Assembly: GCA_015056925.1 (NCBI GenBank) | Contig: SVFJ01000029.1 | Location: forward strand, 1 to 32,522 | DNA: 32,522 nt | Direction: 5' to 3' | Source: Lachnospiraceae bacterium | GTDB taxonomy: Bacteria; Bacillota; Clostridia; Lachnospirales; Lachnospiraceae | In this document: in pieces, positions 1 through 24,809 of the stretch | Layout: the number at the start of each line of letters is the position of its first letter | Position numbering within the stretch: the stretch's first letter is position 1 | Notes under the pieces: model-generated | Databases searched by the model: none | Seen by the model: the letters and a program-made list of their open reading frames with translations, nothing else | Told to the model about the DNA's origin: nothing | Program-made: the position numbers and the translations under genes

Positions 1-137
1 TACGTCTTAGGACATTTAAATAAAAACGCTTAGAAAAACTTTACTCGTAGCGTCTACTTTTGTGTTAAACCATAGACCGTTTCGTGGAGAAGGGCAGAGT
101 GCCGTCCGTTAGCTCGACAAACCCGAATTTGTCGCAT
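1..137 (+). repeat. 3' part of a structured non-coding repeat (copy W), cut by the window edge
   Basis: This stretch aligns end to end with 23020-23137 and with the reverse complement of 22549-22670. Shared blocks include CTCGACAAACCCGAA (113-127) and a block around 54-70 (CTACTTTTGTGTTAAAC) that is also in the two other copies. Near its end the arms CGACAAA (115-121) and TTTGTCG (128-134) pair around the loop CCCGAA. It contains no open reading frame and ends at the A-tract of the pectinase terminator. The left part of the copy should lie outside the window. Confidence 0.75.
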
Positions 138-165
138 AAAAAGGGCGCGTCTGCATGACGCACCC
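138..165 (-). terminator. Rho-independent terminator of the pectinase gene
   Basis: The arms 143-151 and 157-165 pair over 9 bp (one G-U on the minus strand) around a 5-nt loop. On the minus strand a run of T (138-142) follows. It lies 10 bases past the stop codon of the pectinase gene and directly abuts the end of repeat copy W. Confidence 0.85.
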
Positions 166-174
166 TCAAATTAC

Positions 175-22310: not shown

Positions 22311-22371
22311 CGCTCACCCTCTCCTTTTCTTCTGATTGCTTTTGCACATTTTTCAAATGTTTTTGCGCATT

Positions 22372-22379
22372 TTGCGCAA
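22372..22379. promoter_or_regulatory. TTGCGCAA palindrome in the permease leader
   Basis: The 8-bp palindrome with a central CG resembles a LacI-family operator core. It follows a second half-match (TTTTGCGCA, 22361-22369) and lies downstream of the predicted start point. The same palindrome occurs twice more upstream of the promoter. Confidence 0.5.
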
Positions 22380-22391
22380 CTATTTATACTA

Positions 22392-22412
22392 TGTTCATTT
22401 TTCATGTGAACA
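22392..22412. promoter_or_regulatory. Inverted repeat in the permease leader
   Basis: TGTTCA (22392-22397) and TGAACA (22407-22412) are inverted with nine bases between, with outer ACTAT and ATAGT arms at 22388-22392 and 22419-22423. It lies just downstream of the predicted start point, so it could be an operator or a 5' hairpin. Confidence 0.4.
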
Positions 22413-22426
22413 CTTTGTATAGTTTT

Positions 22427-22455
22427 ATTATAGTTTAGGGTGCTTTTATCGTCAA
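22427..22455 (-). promoter_or_regulatory. Predicted sigma-A promoter of the permease-SBP operon
   Basis: On the minus strand TTGACG (22450-22455) and a perfect TATAAT (22427-22432) are separated by 17 bases. It is the clearest promoter in the window. The start point would be near 22420, giving a leader of about 110 bases. Confidence 0.85.
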
Positions 22456-22517
22456 TTCGCACACATTACAATCTTATTTTCAAACTTTCATATACTTTAC
22501 ATAAAATTATGGCTGTT

Positions 22518-22550
22518 TTTGCGCAAATTTTGCACTCGTATTTTGCGCAA
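22518..22550. promoter_or_regulatory. Two TTGCGCAA palindromes upstream of the permease promoter
   Basis: TTTGCGCAAA is a perfect 10-bp palindrome at 22518-22527, and TTGCGCAA recurs at 22543-22550. With the copy at 22372-22379 they flank the promoter, an arrangement that fits a looping LacI-family repressor. The site at 22543-22550 touches the end of the adjoining repeat. Confidence 0.5.
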
Positions 22551-22747
22551 GTTCGGGTTTGTCGAGCCAACTGACGGTACTCGGCCTGCTCTTATCAGTG
22601 GACTTTATGTTTAACACAAAAGTAGACGCTACGAGTAAAGATTTGCTAAATGTTTTTAGCTAAGTGTTCTCTATTCACGGGACCGGCGCATATTCGCCAT
22701 CCTTGTCTCAAATACGCCTAGCGCCTTCATCCAAGCGGCGCTTCCCT
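22549..22747 (-). repeat. Structured non-coding repeat, inverted copy L
   Basis: This copy reads on the minus strand. Its end (22549-22566) is an exact inverted match to 23114-23131. Two stems are visible: 22721-22725 with 22737-22741, and 22685-22690 with 22713-22718. The conserved block CAAGGATGGCGAAT is at 22692-22705 (inverted). The second stem forms with a G-U pair only in the minus-strand RNA. No open reading frame fits. Confidence 0.75.
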
Positions 22748-22855
22748 ATTTACTCAAAAAACATTAATCAAATCTAATACTCTTCGCAATACTTTTGTGT
22801 TAAACATAAAGTCCACTTCCTAGAGCAGACAGAGTACCTGTGTATCGCAACCCCG
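22748..22855 (+). repeat. Truncated central copy C of the same repeat
   Basis: It contains a 28-bp perfect inverted match (22790-22817) to copy L (22597-22624), and flanking similarity over roughly 100 bases. It lacks the two 5' stems and the CTCGACAAACCCGAA end. Together with copy L it can form one long hairpin. Confidence 0.65.
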
Positions 22856-22877
22856 CTTTATTCGATAACCTAGGCGC

Positions 22878-22936
22878 AAGCACTAACAGACTTCATGCAG
22901 AAAGCCGGCGCAGGGTGTTAGAGTTTCTTAGTGCTT
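22878..22936 (+). other. Alternative stems in the spacer upstream of repeat copy R
   Basis: AAGCACTAA (22878-22886) pairs perfectly with TTAGTGCTT (22928-22936), and the latter is followed by TT. The overlapping CTAACA (22883-22888) can instead pair with TGTTAG (22916-22921). The two stems exclude each other. This part is not seen in the other copies, so its link to the repeat is uncertain. Confidence 0.4.
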
Positions 22937-22950
22937 TTGGAGTATACAGG

Positions 22951-23137
22951 AAACTGCCGACTGGATGGAGGCAGTAGGCGGCAATTTGAGCCAAGGATGG
23001 CGAATCGCCGCCGGTTCCGTACGTCTTAGAACACTTAAATAAAAGCACCTAGAAACTCTTAGCCCGTAGCTCTCGCTTTCGAATGAAACCTGTTAGGGAG
23101 AGCGCCGAGAGAACTCGACAAACCCGAACTTATCGCA
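22951..23137 (+). repeat. Structured non-coding repeat, copy R, most complete
   Basis: It starts with a stem CTGCC/GGCAG (22954-22958 with 22970-22974) around an ACTGGATGGA-like loop. A second stem GGCGGC/GCCGCC (22977-22982 with 23007-23012) encloses CAAGGATGGCGAAT (22992-23005). From 23020 it matches the window start almost throughout, down to CTCGACAAACCCGAAC (23114-23129). Its end abuts the terminator of the LamG lipoprotein gene. The compensating differences from copy L suggest a folded RNA. Confidence 0.75.
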
Positions 23138-23138
23138 C

Positions 23139-23173
23139 AAAAAAGACGCTTCGGATAAAATCCGAAGCGTCTT
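23139..23173 (-). terminator. Terminator after the LamG lipoprotein gene
   Basis: The arms 23143-23155 and 23161-23173 form a perfect 13-bp stem with a 5-base loop, followed on the minus strand by TTTTTT. Repeat copy R begins its homology on the far side of the T-run. Confidence 0.9.
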
Positions 23174-23195
23174 CTATGTTAAGTATTAGCATTGA

Positions 23196-24809
23196 TTACT
23201 GAATATCAAGACAGCAGTTATCTACTGTTAAGCAGTAGTATAAATCGCCATCAATTGCAATATTCTTGTATGACTGCTGATAGTTAGCACCTGCTGCTGT
23301 AACTACGTCACAAACAACATCTGCTGTTGCACCATTGTTAGTTACGTTAACTGTAACTGTAGCACCCTGTAAGTCAGCTGAAAATGTATCCCAATTCCAG
23401 TTGCTCTCTAATGTCCAACCGATTTCAGGATTTGCTGTATCCATAGCTGAGTTCCAACCCCAGTTATCTGCACGAACTACACCGTACTCTTTGTAATCAG
23501 CGTTATCAGCTGCGCTATGACCTTCTGCAACATTCTGAAGAATTACTACAAAGTTATTCCAGTTAGAAGCTTCTGCACCATGCCAGTTAACAAATGTCTT
23601 AGAAACTGTCTCACCCTCGGCAACAGCCCAAATATCACTATGAGCTCCCCAGAATGCTGTTGTACAATCTGTAGCACCAACTGCTGTTCCTGTAGGCTCA
23701 ACATTTACAGCAACAGGCTCCTCAACCTCTACTACTGTACCATCAGCTAAAACAGGCTCAACTGTTGCATCACCCATCTGATAGAGTGTTGCAACCTGAC
23801 CAGCTGTAAGAGCTGTATCATATACATATAAATCATCTACATAACCCTTGAAGATTGTATCCCAGTAGTTAATACCGAATAATGATTCGAACTCAGCATC
23901 GCCCGGCTCCATGATATTTGGAGCTAATGTAGCATCCCATGTATACTCGAAATATGTACCATTTGTGTAGTTATCCTGTGAATCGTATACCTTAGCACCG
24001 TTAATATAGTACTGAGCACCAGCTGTTGTAGAACCAAGAGGGCTTGCCTGCTCTTCACCTGAACATACGATAGTTACATGTACCCACTCTCTCTTTCCAT
24101 GGATAGAATCATCCCATCCATACATCCATGGCCAGCAGTCTGTACCGTCAGCTGCGTCAGATGCCTCATTACGACTCCATACGATAGGGAAAATCTTAGC
24201 AGAGTTAGCACCCCACTCAGACTGTGTTACGTTAAACCATGTTACGTTATTTCCTACGTCTGCTGCCTTACCCATGTTATAACCCATCTGAAGAGTTGCA
24301 CCATATGTAGCTAATCTGTCAGCGTTCATCCAATATGATACAGTATAAGCATCTGTGTTTGTAGCCTCAAGACCTAAATCAAGACCAGCCTTACCATCTA
24401 AGAAGATACAGTTACCAACAGGACCTGTTGCATACTGGAATGCACCCTCTGCAGGAGCGATATCAAATGTAGCTCCGTCGTTTGCACTGTCTGCAGCCTT
24501 CTCAACCTGAGTTACGAGTGTATAACCCTCATCTGCTCCATCAAATGTAAGGTGAGCAAATGGTGTCTCCGGAAGTGCTTCCGGCTCTGCTACTACAGGA
24601 CCTGCAGGAGCTTCCTCAACCTTTGTCTCCTCAACCTTAACTTCTTCCTTTACCTCTGCCTTAGTTTCTTCAACCTTAACTTCTTCCTTTGACTCCTCAA
24701 CCTTTGTCTCTGGTGTAGAAGTTGTGTCCTCTGCCTTGTTTCCGCAGCCTGTCATTAATGCTGCAAGCATTGTTACGCTAAGAACTGATGCTAATAATTT
24801 CTTTTTCAT
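23196..24809 (-). CDS. Surface lipoprotein with LamG-like and second beta-sandwich domain
   Basis: A 537-residue lipoprotein (lipobox MTGC, lipid-bearing Cys22). A spacer of KVEET/KEEVK repeats (about 30-70) would lift the rest off the membrane. A LamG/concanavalin-like domain covers about 85-350 (LTFDGADEG at its start, GYVDDLYVYDTALTAGQV at its end). A second domain of about 165 residues, rich in Trp and Asn (FWGAHSDIW, NWNNFVVILQN), resembles a carbohydrate-binding module; I do not recognise its family. No catalytic motif is visible, so a glycan-binding role at the surface is the best inference. It follows the solute-binding gene by 172 bases, has its own likely promoter and a structured leader, and ends at a strong terminator. 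Confidence 0.85.
   Translation of the reverse strand: MKKKLLASVLSVTMLAALMTGCGNKAEDTTSTPETKVEESKEEVKVEETKAEVKEEVKVEETKVEEAPAGPVVAEPEALPETPFAHLTFDGADEGYTLVTQVEKAADSANDGATFDIAPAEGAFQYATGPVGNCIFLDGKAGLDLGLEATNTDAYTVSYWMNADRLATYGATLQMGYNMGKAADVGNNVTWFNVTQSEWGANSAKIFPIVWSRNEASDAADGTDCWPWMYGWDDSIHGKREWVHVTIVCSGEEQASPLGSTTAGAQYYINGAKVYDSQDNYTNGTYFEYTWDATLAPNIMEPGDAEFESLFGINYWDTIFKGYVDDLYVYDTALTAGQVATLYQMGDATVEPVLADGTVVEVEEPVAVNVEPTGTAVGATDCTTAFWGAHSDIWAVAEGETVSKTFVNWHGAEASNWNNFVVILQNVAEGHSAADNADYKEYGVVRADNWGWNSAMDTANPEIGWTLESNWNWDTFSADLQGATVTVNVTNNGATADVVCDVVTAAGANYQQSYKNIAIDGDLYYCLTVDNCCLDIQ

Follow-up and report, generated by a model that had tools for sequence, protein, structure and literature searches.

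The window analyzed here, a stretch of 32,522 nucleotides from a Lachnospiraceae bacterium (contig SVFJ01000029.1 of assembly GCA_015056925.1), contained a 583-bp element (22549-23131) that harbored two copies of the TwoAYGGAY motif (Rfam RF01731), copy L on the minus strand and copy R on the plus strand, arranged back to back and divergently. The element is probably (at roughly 60%) a mobile palindromic repeat whose stems are kept partly by template switching and which possibly binds CsrA when it is transcribed. This reading is favored by the RF01731 matches, the perfect and repeated terminal inverted repeats (TIRs), the multicopy state, the adjoining terminators, the changes confined to one stem arm, the conserved GGA loops, and the lack of a promoter match. 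The TwoAYGGAY family itself is known; its TIR-bounded, transposon-like context and the one-arm rewriting of its stems in sister species are added here.

Architecture and identity of the element

The element and the related features of the window are arranged as follows.

22549..22566, plus strand: left TIR, AAGTTCGGGTTTGTCGAG, 18 nt, 100% complementary to 23114-23131
22576..22624, no strand assigned: 3' outer stem arm of copy L, extending the Rfam core; inverted repeat of 49 nt, 88% complementary to 22790-22838
22626..22789, minus strand: TwoAYGGAY copy L, matching the whole model (1-168) at 91.6 bits against a gathering score of 43
22790..22838, no strand assigned: 5' outer stem arm of copy L, inverted repeat with 22576-22624
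22873..22905, no strand assigned: 5' outer stem arm of copy R, placed by eye; the same stem was aligned in the similar copy C7
22906..23072, plus strand: TwoAYGGAY copy R, matching the whole model (1-168) at 89.3 bits against a gathering score of 43
23073..23107, no strand assigned: 3' outer stem arm of copy R, placed by eye (compare C7)
23114..23131, minus strand: right TIR, pairing with the left TIR
23137..23179, minus strand: intrinsic terminator behind the ORF at 23196-24809 (minus strand), 14-pair stem that ends 10 nt from the element
1..112, plus strand: third TwoAYGGAY copy, truncated at the contig start so that its 3' part is left; letters identical to the 3' part of the C125 copy
113..130, minus strand: TIR of the third element, one mismatch
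141..167, minus strand: intrinsic terminator adjoining the third element, 12-pair stem, 10 nt from the element

The T-run of the terminator at 23137..23179 points towards the element, which lies directly downstream. The third copy gave no Rfam match because it is truncated. No ORF of at least 100 aa was found in the element, in agreement with the first-pass annotation, which had stated that no protein is encoded, and no sigma-70-type promoter match was found inside it. The stems and loops that had been described for the two copies were present in the sequence. Stem 1 is GCGCC/GGCGC around GCTTGGATGAA in copy L (minus strand) and CTGCC/GGCAG around GACTGGATGGA in copy R (plus strand), whereas stem 2 is GGCGTA/TGCGCC with one U-G pair in L and GGCGGC/GCCGCC in R; CAAGGATGGCGAAT is common to both. 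The hairpin loops read TTGGAT and AAGGAT in L, and CTGGAT and AAGGAT in R, so that GGA is present in all four loops of the window and the strict AYGGAY in none. The span had been given as 22549..23137; its last six bases lie beyond the element, and the TIRs, which make the hairpin pair a transposon-like unit, had been missed. Each half of the element has its own close copies elsewhere, the right half being 96% identical to C7 and the left half 90% to C85 and 89% to C160.

The first-pass annotation had proposed a new RNA family and had named an Rfam match as one finding that would speak against it. Both copies match RF01731 over its full length, far above the threshold, and a new family is therefore ruled out. 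The copies share with the published motif the two-hairpin top and the closing stem; TwoAYGGAY was published as a candidate RNA, whereas here it lies in a TIR-bounded element of the mobile type and at high copy number. In the parts of the published record that were available, the motif dates from 2010, when it was judged “probably” an RNA and unlikely to be cis-regulatory and was reported from human gut, gamma-Proteobacteria, and Clostridiales (PMC2864571). Its loops were later matched to a CsrA-binding motif, and CsrA-binding sRNAs were proposed for Clostridia (PMC4333381); one helix of the motif was lengthened in a structure-prediction paper (PMC7657543), and Rfam 15 lists it among the families improved by R-scape (PMC11701678). 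Within those parts, supplements aside, there was no mention of mobile elements, of many copies per genome, of inverted repeats at the flanks, or of template switching, nor of a tested function, and CsrA binding appeared as a single proposal.

Copies, terminal inverted repeats and probable mobility

The window genome (G000; 3.5 Mb in 183 contigs) contained 43 RF01731 matches, 42 of them over the cut-off, which bears out the earlier description of the feature as a multicopy repeat. In a survey of 60 genomes with stricter filters, under which G000 gave 37 matches, RF01731 was carried by 12 genomes (1 to 38 matches each), all within the 36 genomes of the same genus. Each copy is a long imperfect palindrome with closing stem arms of about 60-90 nt that vary between copies, and with a conserved three-way top that bears two GGA-containing loops. 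In G000, 23 of the 43 copies have a contig end within 750 nt, their 5' side being turned towards the break, as is expected of an element whose interior is a collapsed repeat. Six divergent pairs are whole on their contigs (C83, C41, C118, C27, C131, and C6); no TIR was seen around the C6 pair. The elements on C41, C118, and C131 (loci L043, L044, and L038) enclose, by eye, tandem arrays of palindromic units of about 50 nt, and the unit sequence differs in each of the three. Four G000 copies (C157, C125, the right one of C131, and the left one of C143) have a common replacement of loop 1, a longer insert without GGA. In G019, two copies about 4.7 kb apart (L243 and L245) match the flanks on either side of one G028 copy (L104), as though the intervening stretch had been lost or gained by recombination between copies.

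The 18-bp TIR had 33 matches with up to 3 mismatches in G000, compared with 4 for a reversed control pattern. The same TIR bounds elements of 213, 252, 211, 254, and 234 bp in L128, L140, L151, L153, and L160 of the MAG RGIG374, which have no ORF of at least 100 aa and no RF01731 match. Among the 20 TIR loci scanned out of 48, only L158, from a MAG labelled uncultured Clostridia, had both the TIR and an RF01731 match. The ends are thus not peculiar to the hairpins, and the TwoAYGGAY hairpins look like one of several passengers of TIR elements. A further short element bounded by this TIR was seen in L152 (Clostridia MAGs), and a lone TIR follows a gene on C1.

An intrinsic terminator precedes 18 of the 33 TIR ends (those with 60 nt of flank), one of these terminators (L028) being weak, vs. 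201 of 3000 positions drawn at random from the same loci; these positions include genes, and the contrast with intergenic DNA is therefore overstated. The window, C41, and C118 elements, for which both ends are in hand, have a terminator at one end, and one terminator per element would put about half of all ends behind a terminator.

With its short length (583 bp), perfect 18-bp TIRs, lack of a transposase gene, and many copies at different places, the element resembles bacterial MITEs. It differs from them in enclosing two divergent copies of one structured family, in often lying just behind intrinsic terminators, and in having no plain target duplication. The feature may accordingly be described as a putative non-autonomous, MITE-like element, which a transposase acting in trans on the 18-bp ends would have moved. 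MITE-borne small RNAs have been reported for Coxiella, according to the part of a review that was available (PMC10969869). Three points speak against this part of the preferred reading. No target-site duplication was seen by eye in the flanks inspected, for which no empty site pins down where the element ends; no transposase-bearing partner with the same ends was recognized among the loci read, contigs breaking inside the repeats; and no clean empty site was found when G028 loci L110 and L103 were compared with G019, G016, and G026. A DDE-transposase-like ORF in L156, judged from its translation, was considered as a partner and rejected, the nearest TIR pair being only 109 bp and lying beside the ORF. 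G013, a genome with no RF01731 match, retains the left gene at 79% identity, and similarity to the right flank of the window was not found there. Several TTTTGCGCA-type repeats and palindromes lie at 22337-22550 of the window, upstream of a permease gene, with similar letters in the G013 ortholog; these repeats are possibly regulator sites.

The type label of the family in Rfam, “Cis-reg”, would make each copy a leader that controls the next gene. Two solo copies, C30 (L002) and C40 (L031), directly follow T-box-like terminators and precede pheS-like and dapF-like genes (names from sequence reading), so that they stand between a T-box-like leader and a gene, which speaks for such a role. However, the 3' ORF runs in the same direction in only 20 of the 58 copies with both flanks and not in the other 38, and the founding survey, as far as it was available, regards a cis-regulatory role of the motif as improbable (PMC2864571). 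A leader function is therefore very improbable.

Covariation, strand signal and one-arm rewriting

The 583-nt element folds at -241.7 kcal/mol, a value that includes its own inverted ends besides the two hairpins, compared with -153.6 (sd 6.9) for 100 dinucleotide shuffles, none of which was as low. The first-pass annotation had also claimed compensating base changes with pairing kept, and these were found on a larger scale: among 36 of the 43 G000 matches (two partial ones, the chimeric C169, and the four with the loop 1 insert were left out), both sides had changed in 27 of 37 consensus pairs. In this alignment 96.5% of cells were paired vs. 78.9% in shuffles; cells with both sides changed numbered 243 vs. 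76.5 in shuffles, and 37 cells had only one side changed. When the partners were slid by 1-3 columns, paired cells fell to 37-47%. The copies are related, so the cells are not independent, and the structure that was counted is the consensus of the same alignment. Chance pairing is ruled out by the shuffled folding energies together with the covariation test.

Strong covariation in pairing therefore stands from the earlier claim of a structured RNA. The RNA nature is not established, since the balance of G-U and A-C mismatches varies and block changes occur in one arm. The single U-G pair had been taken to fix the RNA strand, a view that is likewise not established, since this balance differs between genomes. 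It was measured with a stem scoring that is blind to strand and allows G-U and A-C mismatches equally, on 94 copies (43 of G000 and 51 from relatives with loci). Pooled over 52 non-redundant copies, G-U numbered 152 and A-C 165 (gap penalty -3), and inside helices only (strict, gap penalty -4) 37 and 29. The control ratios were 39:0 for 26 tRNAs and 81:35 for 30 6S RNAs (19:4 inside helices), the latter being those of 53 listed matches with loci.

Split by genome, the counts fell into two patterns. The set of G000, G009, G018, G023, G025, and CAMHMG (29 copies) gave 73:58, strict 26:6, which is RNA-like on the Rfam strand, whereas the set of G008, G016, G019, G026, G028, G029, and G030 (23 copies) gave the reverse, 13:44 and strict 5:14, and rests mostly on G028 and G026. 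These counts cover outer and closing stems only, and a gap penalty of -4 was used for all set-split counts. The sets were divided after the per-genome strict counts (summed 32:12 and 5:17) had been seen; the p values of 0.0005 and 0.06 are therefore descriptive only. Folding energy agreed with this split only in part: the Rfam strand was the lower one in 40 of 41 G000 copies, 1 of 13 in G028, and none of 6 in G019, as well as in 6 of 7 G030 and 5 of 5 G008 copies, both genomes of the second set; G016 was about even (3 and 2), and the non-redundant copies overall were 30 vs. 21 for the Rfam strand. All 30 6S RNAs folded better on their own strand than on the complement, whereas the tRNA strand had the lower energy in only 18 of 26 and the higher in 7, which makes folding energy the weaker strand test. 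The strict 26:6 and the 40 of 41 G000 copies are as expected of an RNA and weigh against the preferred reading.

For 20 of 26 copies in the second set, the nearest 3'-side ORF runs antisense to the Rfam strand. The mRNA would then carry the complementary strand, on which the A-C mismatches of the closing stems (44, vs. 13 G-U) become G-U pairs, and both points would suit a 3' end element, a REP-like hairpin that protects the mRNA or stops read-through and for which the strand of the neighboring gene matters. On the other hand, the genes are plain ORF calls and the copies share ancestry, and the energies disagree, the complement folding better in G028 and G019 and the Rfam strand in G030 and G008, with G016 even. 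Elements of the window genome lie behind existing terminators, so that little transcript should reach the hairpins, and the conserved loops are left unexplained. A 3' end role is thus quite unlikely. Weak selection against A-C on whichever strand is read through is possible, and the energies of G030 and G008 speak against its simple form.

A possible origin of the matching changes was seen in sister species, which have many loci in common; 12 groups of orthologous loci were aligned, and two clear one-arm events were found. In L247 of G019, the 5' arm is the reverse complement of its own 3' arm over at least 22 nt, whereas in the orthologs the same stretch has 7 mismatches to the own 3' arm in G028 and 5 in G016. 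Within 11 nt, G028 and G016 agree at six positions at which G019 differs, and all six differing G019 letters complement the G019 3' arm. The flanks are 97% identical between G019 and G028 and 91-94% between G016 and either, which puts G016 outside and places the change in one arm in G019. In the second copy of L100 in G028, one arm was rewritten over a block of about 9 nt to match the other, with a one-base length change; the G019 ortholog and the neighboring copies in both genomes keep the other state. A possible third event, of two bases, was seen in L070 of G016. Both clear events lie in the outer part of the closing stem, at loci of the relatives; neither lies in the copies of the window or in the two apical hairpins, a point that counts against the preferred reading.

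Block changes of this kind are what template switching between the arms of a quasi-palindrome does; such blocks may also come from recombination with another copy. According to the part of a 2022 study that was available, template switching can create and maintain RNA hairpins (PMC8794818). In the proposed mechanism, template switching during replication would copy one arm onto the other and thereby keep part of the stem complementarity; for the copies of the window, we infer this from the two loci in sister species. Since the one-arm block changes occur at the level of DNA, covariation can arise without selection on RNA, and matching base changes are not by themselves proof of a working RNA.

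Conserved loops and their candidate recognizers

The conserved unpaired bases must be recognized by some factor. Loop 2 is CANGGA in 90 of the 92 copies that are 150 nt or longer, and loop 1 lacks GGA in at least 8 (6 were counted, and two more read CACGA). The invariant loop and junction bases could be explained by a purely selfish repeat only via a mobilizing protein, a point that counts against the preferred reading. CsrA is a reasonable candidate because the genome encodes one and the loops contain GGA, and that it recognizes the conserved loops when a copy is transcribed by read-through is conceivable, if somewhat short of probable. A protein that handles DNA is the alternative recognizer.

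CsrA (PF02599) is encoded in 12 of 12 carriers of RF01731 and in 39 of 48 non-carriers, so that its co-occurrence was rejected as a test of little use. Four carriers encode several copies (G026 4, G016 5, G028 7, and G019 8), compared with at most 3 in non-carriers, whereas G000 and G030, the genomes richest in TwoAYGGAY, encode one each. In G028, contig C9 (L221) carries three CsrA genes at spacings of about 4.6 kb, and no RF01731 is found there among the G028 matches listed.

A stronger form of the CsrA hypothesis takes the element as a decoy RNA, whose loops sequester a CsrA dimer, whose pairing is kept by selection on RNA, and which a mobile element spreads. The published motif-matching proposal (PMC4333381, seen in part), the near-invariant loop 2, the presence of CsrA in every carrier with 4-8 copies in four of them, the strict 26:6 of the first set (vs. 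19:4 for 6S RNA), and the better folding of the Rfam strand in G000 all agree with it. CsrA-sequestering RNAs (CsrB, RsmY, and RsmZ) likewise have GGA in hairpin loops and two sites per unit; they differ in that the hairpins here are candidate transcripts and candidate CsrA binders, lie on a mobile repeat, and have a loop 1 that is not always GGA. Against a decoy stand the CsrA genes of non-carriers, the single CsrA in the two richest genomes, the loops 1 without GGA, the absence of a promoter match in the element, and the second set, with its strict 5:14 and with a complement that folds better in 12 of 13 G028 and 6 of 6 G019 copies. The decoy is possible, yet doubtful.

REP sequences, the ends of IS200/IS605 elements, and attC sites are folded DNA hairpins that are bound by an enzyme. 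By analogy, the folded top could be bound as a single-stranded DNA hairpin by a transposase or recombinase, the loops being its binding site. The dispersal of the copies, solo and as inverted pairs, the scarcity of G-U pairs in the long stems of the G028 group, and the near-even pooled mismatches (152 vs. 165, strict 37 vs. 29) are consistent with such recognition. REPs are dispersed imperfect palindromes that also occur as inverted pairs near gene ends, and the TwoAYGGAY copies resemble REPs and BIMEs in all of these respects; their units are much longer and have a three-way top, and 7 of the 12 carriers lack the Y1 transposase (Y1_Tnp, PF01797), among them G000 and G030, the ones with most copies. 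Mobilization by the REP/RAYT route was rejected because PF01797 had no match in G000 or G030. Moreover, the TIRs are common to elements without RF01731, so that the hairpins are probably not needed for movement in the window genome, and no candidate enzyme was found. Recognition as single-stranded DNA is therefore unlikely.

For the preferred reading of a mobile palindromic repeat, CsrA binding would likely be a use of the transcribed strand in some lineages, as far as can be judged from sequence. Since TwoAYGGAY is a multicopy passenger of a TIR element, often behind terminators, it is to be treated as mobile in tests, and mobility would explain why copies face neighboring genes in either direction. 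The one-arm rewriting at orthologous loci bears on the wider issue of whether, and to what extent, covariation is proof of selection on RNA. That template switching can create and maintain RNA hairpins has already been published (PMC8794818, as far as available), and a dispersed bacterial repeat with many close copies would allow it to be measured. For the family as a whole, it may tentatively be proposed that TwoAYGGAY is a mobile DNA palindrome, that its covariation comes largely from template switching, and that its loops serve recognition of the folded DNA or of the read-through strand. If this is true, a listed Rfam family shows that compensating changes can be mutational in origin.
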